The position numbers and the translations under genes are program-made. DNA of 64,000 nucleotides from Alcaligenes faecalis (GTDB taxonomy: Bacteria > Pseudomonadota > Gammaproteobacteria > Burkholderiales > Burkholderiaceae_B), in contig NZ_CP031747.1 of the NCBI RefSeq assembly GCF_005311025.1, positions 3,263,634-3,327,633 on the forward strand, written 5' to 3'. The notes under the pieces are model-generated. The model did not search any database. It was not told where the DNA came from and saw only the letters and a list, made by a program, of their open reading frames with translations. This document shows positions 5,051 through 60,866 of the stretch, one piece after another (position 1 is the first letter of the stretch; every line of letters starts with the position of its first letter).

Positions 5051-5084
5051 AAAAAAGAGGCATACTTTGGTATGCCTCTTTTTT
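5051..5084. terminator. Bidirectional terminator between the BASS transporter and dnaB
   Basis: The perfect 15-base arms AAAAAAGAGGCATAC and GTATGCCTCTTTTTT flank a four-base loop. The A and T runs make it function on both strands, which suits the convergent genes on either side. Confidence 0.93.
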
Positions 5085-16399: not shown

Positions 16400-16858
16400 C
16401 TAATCAGCAAAGTGATATTCCAAAATATCGTCACCGAACTCATCACGCTGGCCGCTTTCGGTCCAGCCTAAATGACGATAGAAACCATAGGAGCGCACCT
16501 GAGGATCACTATTACAAGCCAGGAACAGGCGCGTAAAACCACGCCCCTGCAAGTCCTGCATCATCTGTTTCAGCAAACGACGGCCCAGACCCAGGCTTTC
16601 ATAGTCGGGCAACAGCGCCAGCACCATGATCTCGCCGCTCTCGCTATCACCGAAGCAATAGCCAGCCATCTGCTCATCGACCAGGGCCACATAGCCGGGG
16701 CAACTACCATCCTCAATACCTGCGGCCCAGCTTTCGGCGGTAACTCCCAAGGCGGCCAGATCCTCTTCAGAAAAAGCATTTTCACGAGTCAGTCCCCGGA
16801 TACGCAGGCATTCGCGGGCGTCATCAGGCACTGCAGCGCGCAAGACTATCTTGCTCAT
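16400..16858 (-). CDS. GNAT family N-acetyltransferase
   Basis: A 152-residue single-domain acetyltransferase. The acetyl-CoA-binding motif A is ALLPDYESLGLGRRLLKQMM (residues about 82-101), with the GLGRRL loop. Motif B-like SYGFYRHLGW follows near 123-132. Substrate cannot be inferred. It stands alone on the minus strand, 25 bases upstream of the frameshifted GyrI-like gene and in the same direction, so the two could share a transcript. Confidence 0.88.
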   Translation of the reverse strand: MSKIVLRAAVPDDARECLRIRGLTRENAFSEEDLAALGVTAESWAAGIEDGSCPGYVALVDEQMAGYCFGDSESGEIMVLALLPDYESLGLGRRLLKQMMQDLQGRGFTRLFLACNSDPQVRSYGFYRHLGWTESGQRDEFGDDILEYHFAD

Positions 16859-16922
16859 TCACTACTCCAATATAAAAAGGGCAATGACGGCAAATCATCA
16901 CGTCATCGACCATACAAAAGAC

Positions 16923-17867
16923 TTAAGGGGTGTCAGTGTTGAGTTGGCTCAACCACTGGGCAATGTCGCCCACGACCTGGGGCATGGCCGAGCTGCCATC
17001 GGCCTGCGTCATGACGTGATCCAGATCGGGATAGCTGCGCCACACCACATGCGGGTTATCCACCTGTGCCACCATCTGGGCAGCGGCTTGCGGCGAGACC
17101 GAGGTATCGCGCCCGGACTGAATCACCAGAGTGGGGATAGCAATCCGTCGCAGCACCTCAGCCTGATCCAGATTCAGCATCTGCTGCCACCAATCGCGTC
17201 CATGTCCGCTCATCCGAGTATCCAGGCCGGCCCTGGCCTGCCTCAAAAATTCGCCCAAGCCATCAAGCATGGTTTGCTTGTCGGCAGCCGGCATCTCTTG
17301 GATTGAGGCGCTATAGAGCACATCATCCTGGAACCAGCGCCCGCCGCCATTAAAACTGATGGCCGCATCCAGATGCGAAGTCTGGGCCGCCAGCAAATGA
17401 ACAATCACCGCTCCCTCGCTGCCACCCAAGGCAAAAAGCTTGTCATAGCGGGTCTGACTTTGCAGCTGTTTTAAAACCGCATCCAGATCAGCCACACGCT
17501 GTTGGGGCTGGTCGCGCTGAATATAGTCTGTCGGGCAATCGCTACGCTCGGGATCGTCGCTATCAGGCAGCGCGGCCGTCAGCGCATATTTTTCCACCGC
17601 CAGCACCTGGGCTTGTGGACGAGCCTTGGCCAGGGTTTCCCAAACAACTTTCTTGTGCGCCACGCTATTGCAATCCGAGCCTTGCACAATCAGAAGCAGC
17701 TCATGCACACCTTCTTGAGGGGCGATGGCAGGCTGGACGTAATAATGAATGGTGCTGCCATCTGCACGCGCCAATTCATGTGGCTGCGCTTGAGCATAAG
17801 CCTGGCTGCCCACGACCCCAGAGATAGCAAGGCCCGCCAGGCGGGCCAGAGAAATTGAATAATCCAT
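16923..17867 (-). CDS. Exported alpha/beta hydrolase
   Basis: I start this 314-residue protein at the ATG at 17867, because MDYSISLARLAGLAISGVV followed by GSQAYAQA looks like a signal peptide cleaved after about residue 25. The ribosome site is poor, so this is a judgement. The catalytic triad of an alpha/beta hydrolase is suggested by the nucleophile elbow GGSEG, the acid in QSGRDTSVSP and the histidine in DLDHVMTQ. It resembles dienelactone-hydrolase-like or prolyl-oligopeptidase-like enzymes acting in the periplasm. Substrate unknown. Confidence 0.78.
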   Translation of the reverse strand: MDYSISLARLAGLAISGVVGSQAYAQAQPHELARADGSTIHYYVQPAIAPQEGVHELLLIVQGSDCNSVAHKKVVWETLAKARPQAQVLAVEKYALTAALPDSDDPERSDCPTDYIQRDQPQQRVADLDAVLKQLQSQTRYDKLFALGGSEGAVIVHLLAAQTSHLDAAISFNGGGRWFQDDVLYSASIQEMPAADKQTMLDGLGEFLRQARAGLDTRMSGHGRDWWQQMLNLDQAEVLRRIAIPTLVIQSGRDTSVSPQAAAQMVAQVDNPHVVWRSYPDLDHVMTQADGSSAMPQVVGDIAQWLSQLNTDTP

Positions 17868-18053
17868 GCCGCACTGTGGCACAGAATGATGAAGATTTGA
17901 TGGAGAAAAATGGCGGACTCGCCGCCATGAAAAGGGACCAGTCAGCAAAGAGCTGACCTGACCGGGGGAGACATCAAGCCATCACACCCTTTGCTGGCTG
18001 GTGTCCCGCCGCCGGTCGCCATTTGCCCAAAAAGACGACCGGACTGGCAAGAC

Positions 18054-52736: not shown

Positions 52737-53579
52737 GTGACTCGCCTGAACCTGAACTTGCCACGTATTCGTGGTACCAAGCTGGCCCACGTAGCCGCAT
52801 TAATGCTGGCTGCCACTTTGCTTGCTGGCTGCGGCACTACCAAAAAAGAAGTTGACCCCACCTCGGGTTGGACCGCCGAGCGCCTGTATAAAGACGCCCG
52901 TGAAGAAATGTCCGCCGGCAACTGGAAAGACGCGCGTACCCGCCTGGAAGCCGTCGAGTCCCGCTACCCCTTTGGCACGTACGCACAGCAATCGCTGATC
53001 GACCAAGCCTATATCAACTGGAAAGACGAAGAGCCTGCCAAAGCCCTGGCCGCTATCGACCGCTTCCAGAAGCAATACCCCAGCCACCCCGGTACCGACT
53101 ACATGCTGTACCTGAAAGGGCTGATCTCCTTTACACCTCCTAGCGCTGCCCTGTCCAACATTACCCAACAGGACCCCAGCGAGCGTGACCCCAAAGGTCT
53201 GCGTGAATCCTACGAAGCCTTTAACGATCTGCTGCAACGCTACCCCAATAGCCGTTACGCACCGGATGCCGCCAAGCGTTTGACCTGGCTGGTCAGCACC
53301 ATCGCCCAGAACGAAGTACACGTAGCCGAGTACTACTACAAGCGTGGCGCTTACGTGGCTGCTGTGAACCGTGCGCAAACCGTGATTACGGACTTCAAGG
53401 GCGTGCCTATTGCTGAACGCGCGCTGTACTTGATGTACCTGTCCTACGACAAGATGGGTCAAACCGAGCTGCGTGACACCACCAAACGCGTGATGGATCA
53501 GAACTTCCCGGACTCCACCTACTTCAAGGACGGTCTGGATGCCAAGGTTAACTACTGGAACCCGATTAACTGGTTCTAA
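52737..53579 (+). CDS. bamD: Outer membrane assembly lipoprotein BamD
   Basis: A 280-residue lipoprotein of the Bam complex that inserts beta-barrel proteins in the outer membrane. I start at the GTG at 52737, with AAGGA seven bases upstream, rather than at an earlier TTG. The lipobox LLAGC places the lipid-modified cysteine at C32. Several TPR repeats follow (ERLYKDAREEMSAGNWKDAR, then RFQKQYPSHPGTDYMLYLKG). The end YWNPINWF is typical of Burkholderiales. The length fits the family. Confidence 0.94.
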   Translation: MTRLNLNLPRIRGTKLAHVAALMLAATLLAGCGTTKKEVDPTSGWTAERLYKDAREEMSAGNWKDARTRLEAVESRYPFGTYAQQSLIDQAYINWKDEEPAKALAAIDRFQKQYPSHPGTDYMLYLKGLISFTPPSAALSNITQQDPSERDPKGLRESYEAFNDLLQRYPNSRYAPDAAKRLTWLVSTIAQNEVHVAEYYYKRGAYVAAVNRAQTVITDFKGVPIAERALYLMYLSYDKMGQTELRDTTKRVMDQNFPDSTYFKDGLDAKVNYWNPINWF

Positions 53580-53653: not shown

Positions 53654-53690
53654 AAAAAAAGGCCGAATCCCATACAGGATTCGGCCTTTT
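53654..53690 (+). terminator. Terminator after bamD
   Basis: The arms AAAAGGCCGAATCC and GGATTCGGCCTTTT flank a six-base loop. The stem is 14 base pairs and lies 75 bases past the stop. Confidence 0.92.
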
Positions 53691-53832
53691 TAGTTTTCCG
53701 GCTTCAAGCTGATATTCCTTACCAGTCTGCTCTGCCCTGCTCATCAAAACAGTAACGACAAGTCAGGTAGATCCTTAGCCTGCAGCCATCTAAACACACC
53801 CCGCCCCCACAGGCTCCAGAGCCTCCTGAATA

Positions 53833-54513
53833 TCACCCCACCTTCTTGGCATTGTCCTTTTGCACGCTATACATACGCTCTGCAAAAGCCTTGGCCTTGG
53901 CTGGGTCCAGGGGCTGGCCTCCCAGAATCTTCATGGTGTCGTCCAGATACACCATGCGGTCTTCCAGCTCTTCCTGCAGGCCAATCAGGTAATAGCCAAT
54001 CTGACAAAAGTACGTCGTCCGGGCTCGGGTCTGGGCTTCAATCTCTTCCAGACCCATACGCTGAAAGAAATTGGCCAAGGCATTCATGCAGGCCTTGTCC
54101 GCCCGCGCGACGGCCTGACGCACTCGCTCGGAGCGCCTTGCCCAATCCCGCATGGCCATATCCAGGCCCGGCTCAAAACGGGACACATCCAGCCAAGTGG
54201 AGAACAGGGACAACATGCCATCTTGCAGATTGTCCACATTCTCCAGCGCCAGCATGGTGGAGCGCATATTCTTTTGTTCCCAGAAACCGACCAGCCCATC
54301 CAGCAGATCGTCCCTGTCCTTGAAATGCCAATAAAAACTGCCTCGCGTGACGGCCATGACCTGCGCCAGGCGAGTGATGCGCACCGCCTCCACGCCTTCC
54401 TGCATAAACAGGCGAATGGCCGCCTCCAGCCAGTCCGCCCGCGTCAAATGCACATTGGGCTCGGTCAGCGCGCCGGCCTGGGCCACACGTTCAATCAATT
54501 CCTTATCGCTCAT
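53833..54513 (-). CDS. TetR family transcriptional regulator
   Basis: A 226-residue regulator started at the ATG at 54513; a TTG eleven codons upstream is an alternative. The helix-turn-helix is in ITRLAQVMAVTRGSFYWHFK near residues 45-64, preceded by WLEAAIRLFMQEG. The C-terminal ligand domain is family-typical but not specific. It is the last gene on the minus strand after the TRAP cassette, so it probably controls it. A perfect 20-bp palindrome at 59147-59166 before the first gene of the cassette is the natural candidate operator. Confidence 0.88.
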   Translation of the reverse strand: MSDKELIERVAQAGALTEPNVHLTRADWLEAAIRLFMQEGVEAVRITRLAQVMAVTRGSFYWHFKDRDDLLDGLVGFWEQKNMRSTMLALENVDNLQDGMLSLFSTWLDVSRFEPGLDMAMRDWARRSERVRQAVARADKACMNALANFFQRMGLEEIEAQTRARTTYFCQIGYYLIGLQEELEDRMVYLDDTMKILGGQPLDPAKAKAFAERMYSVQKDNAKKVG

Positions 54514-54564
54514 ATCGCCTGCTTGTAGAGTCGCTTTAGTCGCCAAAGTATACCGGCGCTCCTC

Positions 54565-55860
54565 TTATAACAGGCCCAGCATTCGTGGAAACGCCAAGGA
54601 AACAGCGGGCACGAAGGTGGTGATCAATTGAATCGGAATAGCCACAAACACGATCATGGCGATGGCCGGGCCAAAGGAACGATGTACCGTCACCTTGCTG
54701 ATACGGCAGGACATGTACAGCACAGGTGCCATCGGCGGGCTGTTGGAACCCACAATCACCGCACACGCCACAATCGCGGCAAACTGTATCGGATTGACAT
54801 CGGCCACGCCCACCAAAGGCAGCAGCAAGGGAGCCACCACCACGGTCAAGGACACATCGTCAATAATCATGCCCACCAGAATCAGGAACACATTGACCAT
54901 CAAGAGAATGCCGATGGGGCTATCCACCAGACCCGTCACAAAGGCGGTCAAGTCCTGTGGCACACCTTGCGCAACCAAAATACGGCCGATCAGAAAGGAG
55001 AACAGCAAGATCAGGATAACGGTGCCCGTAGTCTCTGCCGTACGTACGAAGCTGTCGCGCAGCTTGCTTAGGGTCAGTTCACGATACACAAAACAGCCGA
55101 TGCCAATCACCAGCACAACCGCCACCGCCGCAGCTTCCGTGGGTGTGAATACGCCCCCGTAAATACCACCCAGAATCAAGGCGGGAATACACAAGGCGGG
55201 CACGGCATAAAGCAAGGTCTTGAGGGAAGAACGACGGGATTGCTCATCAGCAGGCTGTGCAGGCAACTCCTTGAACCAGCGTCCAGCCACCACATAGTTG
55301 AACAGCGTCAGCCCGACCATCAACAGAATCCCTGGCCCGATCGTGGCTGCAAAACACGCCACTACCGACTGCTGCGTCACCACCGCGAACAGAATCATGG
55401 TGATGGACGGCGGAATCAGAATCCCCAGCAAAGAGGAAATCCCCAGCAAGGCCGCCGAGTACTGACGCGGATAACCGCGCTGCTCCATGGGATCGACCAG
55501 AATGGTGCCAATGGACGCTACCGCCGCCGAGGCCGTACCCGAAATCGCCCCGAACACCCCGGAAGCCAGCACCATGCTGGCCCCCATGCCACCACGACGA
55601 TTCTTGACCAGCATTTCGGCAAAACCCACCAAACGGTGCGCAATCCCGCCTGCCTGCATCAAGTATCCCGCCATGATGAACAAAGGCAAAGCCAGCAGAA
55701 CCAGAGAGTTCAAGGAACGGAAACCTTGCAGCATCAAGGTGTTCAAGTTGACGTCATACACCAGCGTCAACATCAGCAGCGTGCCCGCAAAGGACCAGGC
55801 CACCGGCACCCCGACACCCAGCAGAAACAAGAGCAAGAGAACAGAAAATCCGGCATGCAT
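54565..55860 (-). CDS. TRAP transporter large permease (DctM)
   Basis: A 431-residue membrane protein with about twelve hydrophobic segments, the transport subunit of a tripartite ATP-independent periplasmic importer. Family segments are LPLFIMAGYLMQAGGIAHRL, GTASAAVASIGTILV and SNSPPMAPVLYMSCRISKVT. I start at the ATG at 55860, two bases after the DctQ stop; an upstream TTG adds two residues. It uses a sodium gradient to import organic anions or zwitterions. Confidence 0.92.
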   Translation of the reverse strand: MHAGFSVLLLLFLLGVGVPVAWSFAGTLLMLTLVYDVNLNTLMLQGFRSLNSLVLLALPLFIMAGYLMQAGGIAHRLVGFAEMLVKNRRGGMGASMVLASGVFGAISGTASAAVASIGTILVDPMEQRGYPRQYSAALLGISSLLGILIPPSITMILFAVVTQQSVVACFAATIGPGILLMVGLTLFNYVVAGRWFKELPAQPADEQSRRSSLKTLLYAVPALCIPALILGGIYGGVFTPTEAAAVAVVLVIGIGCFVYRELTLSKLRDSFVRTAETTGTVILILLFSFLIGRILVAQGVPQDLTAFVTGLVDSPIGILLMVNVFLILVGMIIDDVSLTVVVAPLLLPLVGVADVNPIQFAAIVACAVIVGSNSPPMAPVLYMSCRISKVTVHRSFGPAIAMIVFVAIPIQLITTFVPAVSLAFPRMLGLL

Positions 55861-55862
55861 AA

Positions 55863-56369
55863 TCAATGGCCCCCATGGCGCAAGGCCATCAAAGACTGAT
55901 AAACATCGCGCAAGGCATAGATCAGGCTACCGGCGGCGTTCAGACCAATAGCGGCTTGCGGCACCCAGACAGGAATTCCCAGCTCGGCCATCGTGGTCGA
56001 GAACCGGGAACCCCACATGAACATGCGCAAGGTCCAATAGGCAAAAGCCACCACAATGATCAGTACCAGTACGGACACGATGAAACGATGGATAGCACGC
56101 GCCCCTGGGGTCTTCAAACGATGCGACAGGTAATCCACCACCAGATGCTGACGGGACTGGCTGGCAATCAAGGCCCCCGTCATATACAGCCAGATCGCCG
56201 CCACCATCACAATGGTGTGCACACCGGCTGCCGGCCAATTCAGGTAATAACGTGCGGCCACCACATAGGCCAAACCTGCCGCCACCACAACGCTGGACGC
56301 AATGGCCAGCCATTCCAGGGCGATCAGGGTCGGCCCTCGCTTGATCAGAAAGTCCTCACTCACAGTCAT
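55863..56369 (-). CDS. TRAP transporter small permease (DctQ)
   Basis: A membrane subunit with four hydrophobic helices (LIALEWLAIASSVVVAAGLA, HTIVMVAAIWLYMTGALIAS and two more). I give the ATG at 56369 (168 residues). A GTG at 56393, which overlaps the DctP stop as GTGA, is equally possible and would add eight residues; the AAGGGAG before the ATG is too close to be a good ribosome site. RQHLVVDYLSHRL matches the DctQ family. It pairs with DctM. Confidence 0.85.
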   Translation of the reverse strand: MTVSEDFLIKRGPTLIALEWLAIASSVVVAAGLAYVVAARYYLNWPAAGVHTIVMVAAIWLYMTGALIASQSRQHLVVDYLSHRLKTPGARAIHRFIVSVLVLIIVVAFAYWTLRMFMWGSRFSTTMAELGIPVWVPQAAIGLNAAGSLIYALRDVYQSLMALRHGGH

Positions 56370-56389
56370 ACTCCCTTGTTCCAAGGTGT

Positions 56390-57382
56390 TCACTTGAGAG
56401 CCGAGGCGTTTTTCTCGATATGGGCCATGATGCTGTCGCCCACTTCAGCGTGCATCGCAGGCCAGACCTTGGCACGCACATGGGTGCCCAAAGCAGCCAG
56501 TTGATCCTTGTCGAGCTCAAGGTAGGTTTTACCCAGCGCTTTCCACTTCTCCACAATGGCCGCGTCCGCTACCTGGGCCTTGGAAAACTGATCTTGCATG
56601 ATGGTGATGGCCGAGGTCTGGATCACTTCCTGCTGCTCGGGCGTCAAGGCTTCCCAGGCTTCCAGGTTCATGGACAGCACACCGGTAATGAACTGCTGCT
56701 TGCTGCGCACGTAGTAATCCAGCGTGTCGCGGAAATATTCGTAGTCGTAATAAATGACGTTGGCTGCATCGCCATCCACCACGCCGGTCTGAATGGACGT
56801 AAACACTTCGCCCCAGTCAATGGCTGCCGTTTGGTAACCCATGGCTTGCACGGACTGCTGCATCATGGAGATCGGGGGGACACGTACCTTGATGTTCCTG
56901 GCGTCCTCTACCGTCACCGCATGTTTGCCTTTAGTGGCGACGCCATTGAATCCTTCAGGCCAGGCACCGAAGAACTTCAAGCCGTTCTCTTTGTAGATAC
57001 CGTCCAGCGTTTCATTCAACCAGCCACCGGGCTGGTACGCGGCCAAGGCTTCTTCCCAGGTGGTGAACATGTAGGGCGTGTAGATCACCGCAATGCGCTT
57101 GTCGTAGGAAGTCATGGGCCAGTTCAGCATCAACTGCACATCACCGGCTACATGCTGGTCGAACACCTCTTCCTGACCACCCAACTGGTTTTGATAGAAA
57201 ACGCGTGGCGACACCGCGCCTTGCGTACCCTCTTTGATCAGCGCAGCCCATTTCTCGATTGCATCACCGCTAGGCGAGCCTTGCGCGCCCGAGTCCGTTG
57301 CAATGCGCATGGTCTGTGCGGACACGGTGGCCGCGCTCAGGCTGAACATCACCGTCAGCAAGGTCTTGCTCAAAAGCTTCAT
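56390..57382 (-). CDS. TRAP transporter substrate-binding protein (DctP family)
   Basis: A 330-residue periplasmic receptor with a signal peptide (MKLLSKTLLTVMFSLSAATV, then SA, cut near 22). The mature part begins MRIATDSGAQGSPSGDAIEK. The family arginine and carboxylate-gripping region appears as NIKVRVPPISMMQQSVQAMG, followed by GEVFTSIQTGVVDGDAANVI. Ligand is unknown. In context with a DAO-type oxidase and an EutQ-like cupin, an amine, N-methylated amino acid or amino-acid-derived acid is plausible. Confidence 0.9.
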   Translation of the reverse strand: MKLLSKTLLTVMFSLSAATVSAQTMRIATDSGAQGSPSGDAIEKWAALIKEGTQGAVSPRVFYQNQLGGQEEVFDQHVAGDVQLMLNWPMTSYDKRIAVIYTPYMFTTWEEALAAYQPGGWLNETLDGIYKENGLKFFGAWPEGFNGVATKGKHAVTVEDARNIKVRVPPISMMQQSVQAMGYQTAAIDWGEVFTSIQTGVVDGDAANVIYYDYEYFRDTLDYYVRSKQQFITGVLSMNLEAWEALTPEQQEVIQTSAITIMQDQFSKAQVADAAIVEKWKALGKTYLELDKDQLAALGTHVRAKVWPAMHAEVGDSIMAHIEKNASALK

Positions 57383-57430
57383 AACTCCTCCTGGGTATGT
57401 CTTTTAAATTTATTGTTCAAACGTCGGCTA

Positions 57431-58756
57431 TCAGGCTTCCGCCCGGTGCCGCCATAACTCCCAGCCCAAACGGGCCCGGACACCCACATCCAGAAACGGA
57501 CGTGGCGGCAAGGCATCGGGTTGCCCCAAAGCCTGCATATCGGCAATCAAGGGATTGTCCACACCGCAAGCCAGATCGGCGACCAACATGCCGGAAATCG
57601 TGCCCTTGGTCAGACCCACCCCGTTCTGACACACCGCGGAATACACATGCGGTGCCACCTGCCCAAAGCCTGGGGAACCATTACGGGACAAGCAGATAAA
57701 GCCGGTCCAGGTGTGCTCCATTTCCACGTTTTTCAGATTCGGGAAACGCTCGTCAAACAGGGTTTTGTGCTCAATGCGCACGCGGCGGCGGCTTTCATCA
57801 TCACTGCGCAAATTGGGCGCGTAAGTCATGTGCTGACGAATCAGAATGCGCTGGTCATTGGTGCGACGCATGGTAATGCCCACAAAGGCATTGGCGGGGG
57901 TCAAACCCCAGCTGGGCAAACCACCCAATTCGCGCTGCTCGCTTTCTGTCAGGCAACGGGTCAGGCTTGCATGAGCCGCCATCGGCATCAGCTTGCCGCT
58001 GTAGAAACCGAACTGCTCGGCGAACACATTCACGGCCAGAATCATCTTGCCTGCACGAACCTTGCCACCGGGGGTTTCCAGCGTGACACCGTCGCCTTGC
58101 TGCAAGGACAGCACGGGCGTTTTTTCGTAGACGGTAACGTTGGGAGGCATATTGTCGGCCAGACCACGCGACAGACCCGCCGGGTTCAGCAACACCGTAC
58201 CGGGGGTGTAAATGCCTGTGCGGAAATGCGTGAACCCCAGCTTGTCGTGCAAGGCTTTGCCGTCCAGCCACTCATGCGGTTCCTTCAAGGACTCCAGCAC
58301 CTGCAGCGTAGGCTTCAAGGTTGTGCGTACGCCTTCCTCCGAAACCGCTGCGTGGAATTTCCCGATGGGGCTCCAGTCGCACTCGATACCGTAACGCTCG
58401 ACCTGGGTTCTTAAATAAGCAATCGCGGTACGCGCCAGGCGCACATGCGAGCGGGCGGCGTCCAGTTCGCCCATGGAACTGCCGACGTTATGAGGGCTAT
58501 CAATCGCAAAGCCGGAGTTTCGGCCTTGAGCGCCCTCGCCCACCAGATCGGCCTCCAGCACCACGATGCTGTCACCGGGGCGGTTCTCTGCCAGGCGACG
58601 GGCAGCGGCCAAACCGGCCAGGCCACCGCCGACAATCACCCAATCAGCCTGCACGTCTTTGGCCAAAGCGGGCTTGGGAGTACGGGGAGCCAGGAGCCGA
58701 CTCCACCCATTTGTCTTGTCGTTCTCCGGCAGACGCGTAATTTTCTTGATGCTCAT
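57431..58756 (-). CDS. FAD-dependent amine oxidoreductase (DAO family, PuuB/OrdL-like)
   Basis: A 441-residue flavoenzyme. The FAD site is WVIVGGGLAGLAAARRLAE at about residues 39-57, followed by GRNSGFAIDSPHNVG, a motif typical of gamma-glutamylputrescine oxidase-like enzymes. The C-terminal half has TWTGFICLSRNGSPGFGQVA and NGVGLTKGTISGMLVADL, which line the isoalloxazine pocket. It should oxidise a C-N bond in an amine or N-substituted amino acid using oxygen or another acceptor. It overlaps the cupin gene by four bases and lies 48 bases before dctP. Confidence 0.87.
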   Translation of the reverse strand: MSIKKITRLPENDKTNGWSRLLAPRTPKPALAKDVQADWVIVGGGLAGLAAARRLAENRPGDSIVVLEADLVGEGAQGRNSGFAIDSPHNVGSSMGELDAARSHVRLARTAIAYLRTQVERYGIECDWSPIGKFHAAVSEEGVRTTLKPTLQVLESLKEPHEWLDGKALHDKLGFTHFRTGIYTPGTVLLNPAGLSRGLADNMPPNVTVYEKTPVLSLQQGDGVTLETPGGKVRAGKMILAVNVFAEQFGFYSGKLMPMAAHASLTRCLTESEQRELGGLPSWGLTPANAFVGITMRRTNDQRILIRQHMTYAPNLRSDDESRRRVRIEHKTLFDERFPNLKNVEMEHTWTGFICLSRNGSPGFGQVAPHVYSAVCQNGVGLTKGTISGMLVADLACGVDNPLIADMQALGQPDALPPRPFLDVGVRARLGWELWRHRAEA

Positions 58757-59118
58757 GCCGCCGTCCGTGCGCTAGCCCAGTTGCTGGGATGCAGGCAGTA
58801 ATGGATCAGAGCAGATTCTGCTTCATAGATCAGGGGCGTGCCCGCTGGCAACCACACACAATCACGTGGACCGGCTTCCAGAATGCCCTGCGGCGTATGA
58901 ATGCGCATGCTGCCCTCGATCACCGTCACGACCTCGTCGTACAACACGGTCCATTCAATGCGGGCCTGGTTCAAGCGTGCATACCCCGCCCCCAAGGGCG
59001 TCCCATCCTCCTCACCCACGATTTCCGCCAACTGCGCCATCTCCGGTTTTTCCTGTCTGGGCTGAAAGACCAAATCGTCAAAACGTATTACTCGCGGCAA
59101 AGTTTTTTCTGTTGTCAT
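58753..59118 (-). CDS. Cupin domain protein (EutQ/DUF861-like)
   Basis: A 121-residue single-cupin protein. The start ATG at 59118 (MTTEKTLPRVIRFDDLVFQP) is preferred to an upstream in-frame start closer to the operator. The cupin motifs are VLYDEVVTVIEGSMRIHTPQ and PRDCVWLPAGTPLIYEAESA, with fewer metal-ligand histidines than classical cupins; the EutQ-like group has this feature. It is first in the cassette and overlaps the oxidase gene by four bases. A binding or auxiliary role in amine catabolism is inferred. Confidence 0.82.
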   Translation of the reverse strand: MTTEKTLPRVIRFDDLVFQPRQEKPEMAQLAEIVGEEDGTPLGAGYARLNQARIEWTVLYDEVVTVIEGSMRIHTPQGILEAGPRDCVWLPAGTPLIYEAESALIHYCLHPSNWASARTAA

Positions 59119-59475
59119 GTGGATCACCAAACACAAGTGGTTTTAGAACATACATAGTTGTATGTTGTGATGGTAATGAGCCGAATTTGACGCGTCAATG
59201 CGTGGAGAGATGGGGATTACCCTGCGTTCCAGGCGGGAGAGCTTTATATTTAAATAATTAAATTAGCCTTGTGACGGGCTCTGCAAGCAGGGAGCTTCGT
59301 AGCGCTTTGGGCTGTTTTTAGCAGGCTTATTGATAAGAAAAATAGCGCATGACAGTGGCGACTATTCAACAAGCAGTCGCTAAGACGCAGGAATGAAATG
59401 GAGTTCTTCAGCCACAGCCAGAAAGCACGGAAGATGGCGAGACTCCATCTGCGCACATTCCTTCGCAAAGCCTAT
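59119..59475. other. Intergenic region upstream of the cupin gene
   Basis: The 357 bases hold the cassette promoter and operator on the left side and otherwise nothing recognisable. A 72-codon minus-strand frame (59468-59250) has no ribosome site and an unusual composition, so I do not call it. Confidence 0.6.
59147..59166. promoter_or_regulatory. TetR-type operator candidate upstream of the cupin-oxidase-TRAP cassette
   Basis: AACATACATAGTTGTATGTT has perfect eight-base arms around TAGT, a layout common for TetR/AcrR operators. It stands 28 bases before the cupin start and overlaps the likely -10 region. Confidence 0.65.
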
Positions 59476-60363
59476 CTACGCCTGTTTTCTGCGCAACGCT
59501 TCTTCCAGCTTTTCACGCCCTTCTCCCATCAGCCAAGAACGCAGCGAGACAAGTTCAGGATTGATTTCTCGCATCAGACCGAGGTCCACCTGTTCTGCAA
59601 GAGGGCCATCCTCCAGACTTGACGCCATATGCCCCAAATCGGCGTTGGCAGCTAATACTTCATCAGGGAATCGGGCATAAGTGATAGAGCGACCTGCGGC
59701 TTCAGAAAAGGCGGCCTCCAGCTCCTGGCCGGTCACACGATCACTGGCGATCTTCAAGGCCATCCCGGCAAAACGTGCCCTGTCCGCAAACAGGGCGGCA
59801 ACGATTTTCCCTATGTCTTGCACCGCAGTGAGTTGGATCGAATGATCACGGTGTATCAGAGAAACCAACCGCCCTTCCTCCAGGCCAAAGCCCGGCCGCA
59901 CAAGCATCTCCATGAAGATCATGGGACGGATGATGGTTGCAGTCAGCGGCAGTTCGCGAATATGTGCCTCAATAAGAGGCTTGGCATCAAAGCGCGCAAC
60001 ACCTGTCAGTTTGTCCCCAGCGCTAGCCCCCGAGGAATAGATGAAATGCTCGACGCCATTTTTTGCCGCCAGATCAGCAAGACGTGTGCCATAACAAACC
60101 TCCTCTTCTGCTGATAGGTTCGCAGGCATCACGCTAAATACGCCATACACATCCTTCATGGCCGACGCGATAAGATTGGCATCGTCCAATGCCCCTTGCA
60201 CGAGTTCAGCGCCTGCTTCCCGCAGAGCGATTGAAGCCGGTTTGGATGGAGATTGCACAAAAGCGCAGACAGGCCAGTGAGCCTCCAGAAGTGCTTTGGC
60301 CACCGATCCACCTTGCCGGCCTGTGGCTCCGAAAACCAGAATGGGACGATGTACTTTATTCAT
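59476..60363 (-). CDS. NmrA-like NAD(P)-binding protein
   Basis: A 295-residue Rossmann protein of the atypical short-chain dehydrogenase group. It begins with LVFGATGRQGGSVAKALLEA, where GxxGxxG binds NAD(P). The tyrosine/serine region IYSSGASAGDKLTGVARFDA lacks the usual YxxxK catalytic motif, as in NmrA/HSCARG redox-sensor proteins. It is divergent from an HxlR regulator that probably controls it. Possible roles are redox sensing or reduction of a quinone or aldehyde. Confidence 0.87.
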   Translation of the reverse strand: MNKVHRPILVFGATGRQGGSVAKALLEAHWPVCAFVQSPSKPASIALREAGAELVQGALDDANLIASAMKDVYGVFSVMPANLSAEEEVCYGTRLADLAAKNGVEHFIYSSGASAGDKLTGVARFDAKPLIEAHIRELPLTATIIRPMIFMEMLVRPGFGLEEGRLVSLIHRDHSIQLTAVQDIGKIVAALFADRARFAGMALKIASDRVTGQELEAAFSEAAGRSITYARFPDEVLAANADLGHMASSLEDGPLAEQVDLGLMREINPELVSLRSWLMGEGREKLEEALRRKQA

Positions 60364-60382
60364 GATTCAGCTCGAAAAAAAG

Positions 60383-60397
60383 AGAATGTCGTATTCT
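60383..60397. promoter_or_regulatory. Inverted repeat between the NmrA-like and HxlR genes
   Basis: AGAATGTCGTATTCT has five-base arms around GTCGT in the 89-base divergent intergenic space. HxlR-family operators often look like this, but the repeat is short and may be chance. Confidence 0.35.
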
Positions 60398-60452
60398 TTC
60401 CTCGATATCTGAATTGCGGAAGACGGCACTTTTTTGAACCTCAGGCACAGAA

Positions 60453-60866
60453 ATGAAACCCATAGATCCAGCAGAGTCGGATGCTCTCAAGGAGAAACCC
60501 GACAGCGACTCATCCTTCCAGCCAATTCCATTGAATGGAGTCTGCACACGCCTTGGTGACAAATGGACCGTGCAGGTCATCTGGCGCCTTGCCATCGCGG
60601 GTGATCGTAGACTGCGATTTTCCGAAATCAAGCGTGAGGTGGAAGGAATCACACAGCGCATGCTGACGCTAACACTGCGAAACCTGGAACGAGATGGCTT
60701 GGTAGAACGCCATTATTTTCCCGAGGTGCCCCCTCGTGTGGAATATGAACTGACGGAGATGGGGAAAAACATGCTCGATGCGCTGAAAGGCATCAATGTG
60801 TGGGTCAAAGAGAACCTTCCGCGTATACAGGAATCACGTCAAACGTACGATGCCAAAAAGCCTTGA
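60453..60866 (+). CDS. HxlR family transcriptional regulator
   Basis: A 137-residue winged-helix protein. The single cysteine before the helix-turn-helix (NGVCTRLGDKWTVQVIWRLA, C31) is characteristic of the family and can sense electrophiles or oxidants. The recognition helix is in EGITQRMLTLTLRNLERDGL and the wing in YFPEVPPRVEYELTEMG. Divergence from the NmrA-like gene suggests direct control in response to reactive electrophiles, as with YodB/HypR; that is inference. Confidence 0.9.
   Translation: MKPIDPAESDALKEKPDSDSSFQPIPLNGVCTRLGDKWTVQVIWRLAIAGDRRLRFSEIKREVEGITQRMLTLTLRNLERDGLVERHYFPEVPPRVEYELTEMGKNMLDALKGINVWVKENLPRIQESRQTYDAKKP

Follow-up and report, generated by a model that had tools for sequence, protein, structure and literature searches.

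Among described catabolic systems, the Puu pathway of E. coli has an oxidase that uses flavin adenine dinucleotide (FAD), PuuB, whose gene lies in a catabolic cluster that has a regulator of its own, and the ectoine importers TeaABC and UehABC are tripartite ATP-independent periplasmic (TRAP) transporters. Demethylation of glycine betaine by MtgB/C/D is described for Roseobacter (PMC12478193). Here we report on a run of six genes, cupin, FAD oxidase, DctP, DctQ, DctM and TetR, on the minus strand (53833-59118) of a 64,000-nucleotide stretch of Alcaligenes faecalis DNA (contig NZ_CP031747.1), referred to as the window. The oxidase is of the same superfamily as PuuB, relatives of the operon carry an adjoining gene of the MTTB (corrinoid methyltransferase) family, and its DctP has some of its best profile matches in chains that we take to be TeaA and UehA. 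Computation established the gene content, the operon layout, the pairing of operator and TetR gene across related loci and a conserved TetR-cupin-FAD oxidase unit. We give about an even chance to the explanation that this is a dedicated inducible operon importing and oxidising one acidic, probably N-methylated, amine.

The evidence for dedicated control comes from an inverted repeat (59147-59166) that begins 28 bases upstream of the cupin ATG. An earlier note on this DNA had placed it there correctly and called it a perfect 20-bp palindrome, a reading that we dropped: only the 8-bp arms, AACATACA and TGTATGTT, match perfectly, the 4-bp centre TAGT is asymmetric and symmetry holds at 16 of 20 positions. 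Taken alone, such an 8-4-8 repeat is mildly unusual and weak evidence. The window holds seven perfect 8-4-8 repeats versus a shuffle mean of 1.5 (range 0 to 4, 20 shuffles), and when the 300 upstream bases were shuffled 2000 times, 58 shuffles contained some repeat with 8-bp arms and a gap of 0-8. The six other perfect repeats lie at 5058, 12737, 23132, 27641, 33924 and 47661.

What makes the repeat more than chance is its conservation across related loci. We sought the motif CATACAnnnnTGTATG up to 300 bp upstream of the first gene (the cupin, or the oxidase if no cupin was found) in 66 loci with a relative of the oxidase, namely 55 of the 79 from a scan of named genomes, 5 of the 71 matching plasmid records and 6 further genome regions; the 24 named-genome loci left out have an oxidase at most 31% identical. 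At up to one mismatch the motif was present at all 28 TetR-bearing loci and at none of the 38 TetR-minus loci, 34 of which are informative (in L036, L052, L064 and L065 at most 123 bases precede the oxidase, too few to reveal one); these locus counts are not independent, since they include the kin pairs L012/L018, L109/L110 and L031/L033, and since L116 and L015 come from one genome. At this stringency the motif occurred nowhere else in the 1,168,973 bases of the 66 loci. Allowing two mismatches added 14 background sites and one TetR-minus locus (L111), whose contig stops inside DctM, where a TetR gene beyond would be missed. Across the 4.2 Mb of the home genome there is a single exact match to the motif. 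While the window and the Alcaligenes loci L012 and L018 have a single site, two sites, mostly 20 bp apart, are found at two mismatches in 22 of the 28 TetR loci. In 15 of 17 genomes or records chosen from these 28 loci the tandem form (up to three mismatches) is present in a single copy, and the other two lack it. We conclude that 59147-59166 is very probably an operator. The suggestion that the cassette has its own regulator and operator is thereby supported, through the operator-TetR pairing across loci, more strongly than its author could have known.

The regulator itself is assigned by its domain (TetR_N, 42.3 bits against a Pfam cut-off of 24), and the segment TRGSFYWHF in its helix-turn-helix region, which we take to be the DNA-reading part of TetR, is invariant in 18 of 18 aligned proteins. 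The operator is of the ACATACA...TGTATGT kind, presumably shared with AcrR-type regulators. A sigma-70-like promoter is predicted directly upstream, with the -10 hexamer ending 3 bases ahead of the operator, a spacing that would suit repression; promoter matches of this kind are not above chance in the region (2 versus a shuffle mean of 2.7), and only the position is suggestive.

To delimit the conserved unit, we counted genes around the oxidase in 49 loci where it is at least 55% identical to that of the window, the window not being counted. TetR was present in 28, the cupin in 24 and an MTTB gene in 18 (both always with TetR), TRAP genes in 12 and all six genes in 10. In the 38 of these loci with at least 3 kb on both sides, the numbers were TetR 23, cupin 21, TRAP 10, MTTB 13 and all six 9, while 17 loci at 40-55% oxidase identity had the cupin twice and TetR, TRAP and MTTB not at all. 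The conserved core is TetR, the EutQ-like cupin and the FAD oxidase, and we rejected a fixed six-gene unit. The import-and-oxidise operon that had been proposed is supported as a probable reading, but "complete" was too strong a word for it since the TRAP part is not stable. Scattered, unlinked homologues had been named as grounds for refutation; the TetR-cupin-FAD linkage withstands this, whereas the TRAP genes partly do not. Co-occurrence in Burkholderiales, put forward as a check, proved sparse, with matches in 7 of 300 genomes of an order sample (E <= 1e-60), six of them at most 42% identical, and in 15 of 200 of a family sample (E <= 1e-120), seven of them Alcaligenes. Within the genus, seven of ten genomes have a close orthologue (at least 95%), two have only 39-40% homologues and one has none; the nearest named relative in the genome scan is Alcaligenes sp. 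SORT26 (oxidase 99% identical). Nearer relatives from that scan are mostly Alphaproteobacteria, and the six-gene loci include Tistrella and Paracoccus plasmids. The earlier note knew of no characterised pathway with exactly this set and named a characterised cluster of the same order and substrate as a further ground for refutation; in open-access full text, the only literature covered, we found neither a cluster of this order nor any description of this gene set.

Other importer genes accompany the oxidase in several relatives, and the importer therefore looks exchangeable around the same enzyme. In Falsochrobactrum (L019, 8974-13154) the oxidase lies between an ABC_sub_bind binding-protein gene and permease- and ATPase-like genes (the latter read from translations), in Pollutimonas a Peripla_BP_6 (LivK-like) gene follows about 3 kb on, and in Rhodoferax (L054) an NlpA-type lipoprotein gene stands immediately before it. 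The Paracoccus versutus plasmid L109 has a second, divergent cupin-TetR pair (16806-17989) just past the operon.

The strongest hint of an N-methyl substrate is the MTTB neighbour, which adjoins the TetR-FAD unit in 18 of the 28 TetR loci, instead of or in addition to TRAP genes (two members were confirmed with Pfam, E 6.9e-191 and 1e-190, and the other 16 were called by tblastn). In two Rhodovibrionaceae bins (L031, L033) both an MTTB gene and an orthologous TRAP set adjoin the unit, with DctP 65 and 66% identical to that of the window. When Ruegeria pomeroyi grows on N-methylated osmolytes, two of its MTTB-domain proteins increase, and the corrinoid protein is encoded by a separate gene (PMC12478193); a lone MTTB gene in the roseobacter loci is therefore plausible. 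Weaker hints come from demethylation-type neighbours other than MTTB: the oxidase has homocysteine S-methyltransferase-family genes nearby in L048, L049, L050 and L063 (domain tested in L048), adjoins a GCV_T-DAO protein in L042 and L044, and in L030 and L039 lies no more than about 6 kb from Glu_synthase-domain proteins, with a type III glutamine synthetase in L030. Agrobacterium has a GbcA/GbcB-like pair that stays below the cut-offs (414.6 against 670 and 319 against 500 bits), together with electron-transfer flavoprotein and formaldehyde-detoxification genes. An old yellow enzyme (OYE)-like flavoprotein, found beside the oxidase in L017 and L044 and nearer or farther in L025, L046, L059 and L066, was dropped as a hint, there being no betaine demethylase among the matches listed (25 of 30 NCBIfam). 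A PhyH-family dioxygenase gene adjoins the oxidase in three MTTB loci (L025, 11326-12102; L027, 11332-12119; L035, 11418-12227; domain tested in L035). For homarine and N-methyltaurine, nothing usable was found among the open-access papers listed.

The predicted model of the oxidase (predicted local distance difference test score, pLDDT, 92.9) is closest to glycine oxidase 4ysh (Z 37.4, root-mean-square deviation 2.4, 356 residues aligned), after which come other glycine oxidases, a proline dehydrogenase and sarcosine oxidases; as modelled, the protein shares the glycine/sarcosine oxidase fold over most of its length. Its scores are far below every curated cut-off of the named amine oxidases listed for it. 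In glycine oxidase (7cyx) the Arg of a GLRP motif presumably holds the acid group of the substrate. This position is Ile in the family profile (a single profile alignment), which does not fit ThiO function, and PuuB likewise lacks the Arg. From the Ile we infer that the acid group of the substrate is not on the carbon beside the nitrogen; the other invariant Arg residues of the family, 296, 302 and 306, could still hold an acid group. In DctP, Arg167 is invariant in 9 of 9 orthologues, along with many aromatic and acidic residues, and a residue of this type is, we assume, the acid-group anchor of TRAP binding proteins. Among the profile matches of DctP are 4p47, 2vpn (5.9e-24), 3gyy (6.4e-24) and 3fxb (2.5e-22), the last three being taken for the ectoine-binding TeaA and UehA. 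Together, the features of the oxidase and DctP suggest an acid-bearing amine. No His is among the residues invariant in 20 cupin sequences, which include Trp56, Tyr60, Asp61 and Glu62. The cupin is therefore unlikely to have a metal site of the usual kind, and we take it to be probably an accessory or binding protein. It passes the broader Pfam EutQ cut-off (40.5 against 21 bits) and scores 44.4 bits, over its C-terminal part only, on the EutQ equivalog with a cut-off of 193.

In the favoured explanation, a dedicated operon for one acidic amine, the TetR-family repressor would sit on the 8-4-8 operator, overlapping the predicted transcription start, and block the cupin-FAD-DctPQM-TetR operon when no substrate is present. 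Substrate or product bound to the repressor would allow expression of the operon, the repressor included (negative autoregulation). DctPQM would then bring in an amine that also bears an acid group, and the FAD enzyme would oxidise its carbon-nitrogen bond to give an aldehyde (formaldehyde if an N-methyl is removed) and a simpler amine or amino acid, which would pass into general metabolism. Repression, import, the chemistry and the N-methyl substrate are the inferred parts of this scheme. A wider proposal, tentative and on the whole somewhat unlikely, makes TetR-cupin-FAD the centre of a pathway not described so far. Its substrate would be N-methylated and would bear its acid group elsewhere than on the carbon adjoining the nitrogen, as in an N-methylated omega-amino acid, betaine or taurine. 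In Roseobacter-type versions a corrinoid methyltransferase would be added for the first methyl, whereas in Alcaligenes and Paracoccus versions the imported compound would be less methylated and the flavin enzyme would suffice for its oxidation; EutQ-like cupins would then represent a novel type of partner for amine oxidases. The candidate regulon is well defined, with one regulator, one operator and one target operon common to Beta- and Alphaproteobacteria, and an operator reporter could screen for the inducer and hence point to the substrate. Exchange of the importer, and addition of a corrinoid methyltransferase, around one oxidase would help in reading uptake and demethylation genes in soil and marine bacteria.

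Several points weigh against the favoured explanation. The home genome was searched and has no MTTB gene, nor is one seen near 8 of the 10 six-gene loci, so that the N-methyl substrate is a transfer from relatives. Apart from MTTB there are few demethylation-type neighbours, and these were picked by inspection, without a background count, while an iron-type alcohol dehydrogenase (Fe-ADH, L030), a zinc alcohol dehydrogenase (L113) and an aldehyde dehydrogenase (Klebsiella plasmid) are neighbours that misfit; for GbcA and SoxB the home genome has matches only below cut-off. The TetR-bearing loci do not form a clade of their own in the oxidase tree, where the smallest group that contains them all has 50 tips, 21 of them without TetR (support 0.594). 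That TetR acts as a repressor is an assumption, the Ile at the GLRP Arg speaks against simple alpha-amino acids such as sarcosine, and the predicted model of DctP is poor (pLDDT 66.6), so a reading of its pocket was abandoned.

Three other substrates were weighed. The fold, nearest to glycine and sarcosine oxidases, a weak match to L-pipecolate oxidase AmaA (123 bits) and the amino-acid-type ATP-binding cassette (ABC) binding proteins beside relatives are consistent with oxidation of an alpha-amino or imino acid (sarcosine, an N-methyl amino acid, pipecolate or a D-amino acid). We consider this unlikely: the scores lie far below the curated cut-offs (600 for AmaA; 34 bits against 529 for SoxB), and the same Ile replaces the glycine-oxidase Arg. 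Its absence from PuuB as well, to which the oxidase is 28% identical over 410 aligned columns, fits instead a polyamine-type catabolism, in which the FAD enzyme would act on a glutamylated or otherwise acid-bearing polyamine, as PuuB does on gamma-glutamylputrescine, with the ligase and dehydrogenase encoded elsewhere. In this context, locus L030 has, some 4 kb away from its oxidase, a gene of glutamine-synthetase type, which scores 213.8 bits on the gamma-glutamylputrescine synthetase model, below the cut-off of 650, and passes that for type III glutamine synthetase. Identity to PuuB is low, MTTB in the relatives would be left unexplained, and no PuuA, PuuC, PuuD or PuuE type is present among the six genes, the only part of the home genome searched for them, and we regard this alternative as quite improbable.

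Use of N-methyltaurine is reported for Alcaligenes faecalis and Paracoccus versutus, and oxidation of an amino-sulfonate, such as a methylated taurine, or of an aminophosphonate has several observations in its favour. The best NCBIfam match of the oxidase is TIGR03329, a putative aminophosphonate oxidoreductase, but at 143.4 bits against a cut-off of 632.8; the DctP profile finds an isethionate-binding DctP (E 6.2e-24); and the operon of two Paracoccus plasmids closely follows genes reminiscent of sulfonate or sulfite metabolism, among them a UxaA-type pair, a sulfate-exporter-family gene and a sulfite oxidase gene. That enzyme scores 259 of 600 bits on the model of sulfite dehydrogenase SorA, and the stretch before the operon (L109, 1-9972; L162) also holds pyruvate carboxylase and transhydrogenase genes. 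Sulfoacetaldehyde acetyltransferase (Xsc) is over cut-off in 14 of 14 MTTB-type genomes searched; for the family to which one of these belongs the count is 91 of 149, a loose comparison since the 14 are not all of that family. In all, Xsc was over cut-off in 18 of 39 genomes or records: the 14 MTTB-type, L021, one Alcaligenes with the oxidase, one without it and G372. It is thus found in 1 of 7 Alcaligenes genomes with the oxidase, and the home genome has none over cut-off (best 283.6 of 676.4 bits). The classical sulfoacetaldehyde route is therefore not available there, and a sulfonate or phosphonate substrate is a minor rival, with little chance of being correct.

The order of five catabolic or transport genes followed by TetR on one strand, and their families, confirmed with Pfam, are as the earlier note had them (Table 1), as are the 4-base overlap of cupin and oxidase, the 2-base gap between DctQ and DctM and the absence of a ligase and a dehydrogenase from the six genes, which include no hydrolase either. 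Whether DctP and DctQ touch, as was also stated, hangs on the start codon, with GTG at 56393 giving a 4-base overlap and ATG at 56369 a distance of 20 bases. DctP (142.5 bits, cut-off 23.4), DctQ (56.9, cut-off 28.3) and DctM (280.6, cut-off 23.8) pass their Pfam cut-offs within one gene run and make up a TRAP transporter. A hairpin that is not among the sites given by the terminator scan separates the operon from a plus-strand gene ending at 53579, which we take for bamD. On the other side (59476-60866), an NmrA-family gene on the minus strand is divergent from an HxlR-type regulator gene on the plus strand.

Table 1. Features of the operon and its flanks, in window positions.
Feature	Position	Strand	Evidence
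Hairpin between A and T runs, likely two-way terminator	53656..53691		read in sequence
TetR-family regulator, 226 amino acids	53833..54513	-	Pfam TetR_N 6.3e-11
DctM, TRAP large permease, 431 amino acids	54565..55860	-	Pfam DctM 2.6e-83
DctQ, TRAP small permease, GTG start, ATG 56369 possible	55863..56393	-	Pfam DctQ 2.7e-15
DctP, TRAP solute-binding protein, 330 amino acids	56390..57382	-	Pfam DctP 2.3e-41
FAD-dependent amine oxidase, DAO/glycine-oxidase fold, PuuB/OrdL-like, 441 amino acids	57431..58756	-	Pfam DAO 1e-47
EutQ-like cupin, 121 amino acids	58753..59118	-	Pfam EutQ 3e-10
Predicted TetR operator, 8-bp perfect arms and 4-bp centre, AACATACA-TAGT-TGTATGTT	59147..59166		conservation across loci
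Predicted sigma-70-like promoter, TTGACG-17-TACCAT, directly upstream of the operator	59170..59198	-	promoter scan

Compared with the described systems, the operon combines familiar parts differently. The helix-turn-helix region of its TetR scores highest on the AcrR model (49.4 bits), but the protein is far under the AcrR cut-off of 271 and the operon looks catabolic rather than concerned with efflux. Unlike the ectoine systems whose binding proteins resemble its DctP, it has no ectoine-degradation family among its six genes. Where the Puu pathway has PuuP and PuuR, the window operon has a TRAP importer and a TetR regulator, and its six genes include neither a PuuA-type ligase nor a PuuC dehydrogenase. 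Finally, in contrast to MtgB/C/D as presented in PMC12478193, the window genome lacks MTTB, and the flavin oxidase is the sole clearly catalytic gene of the operon.

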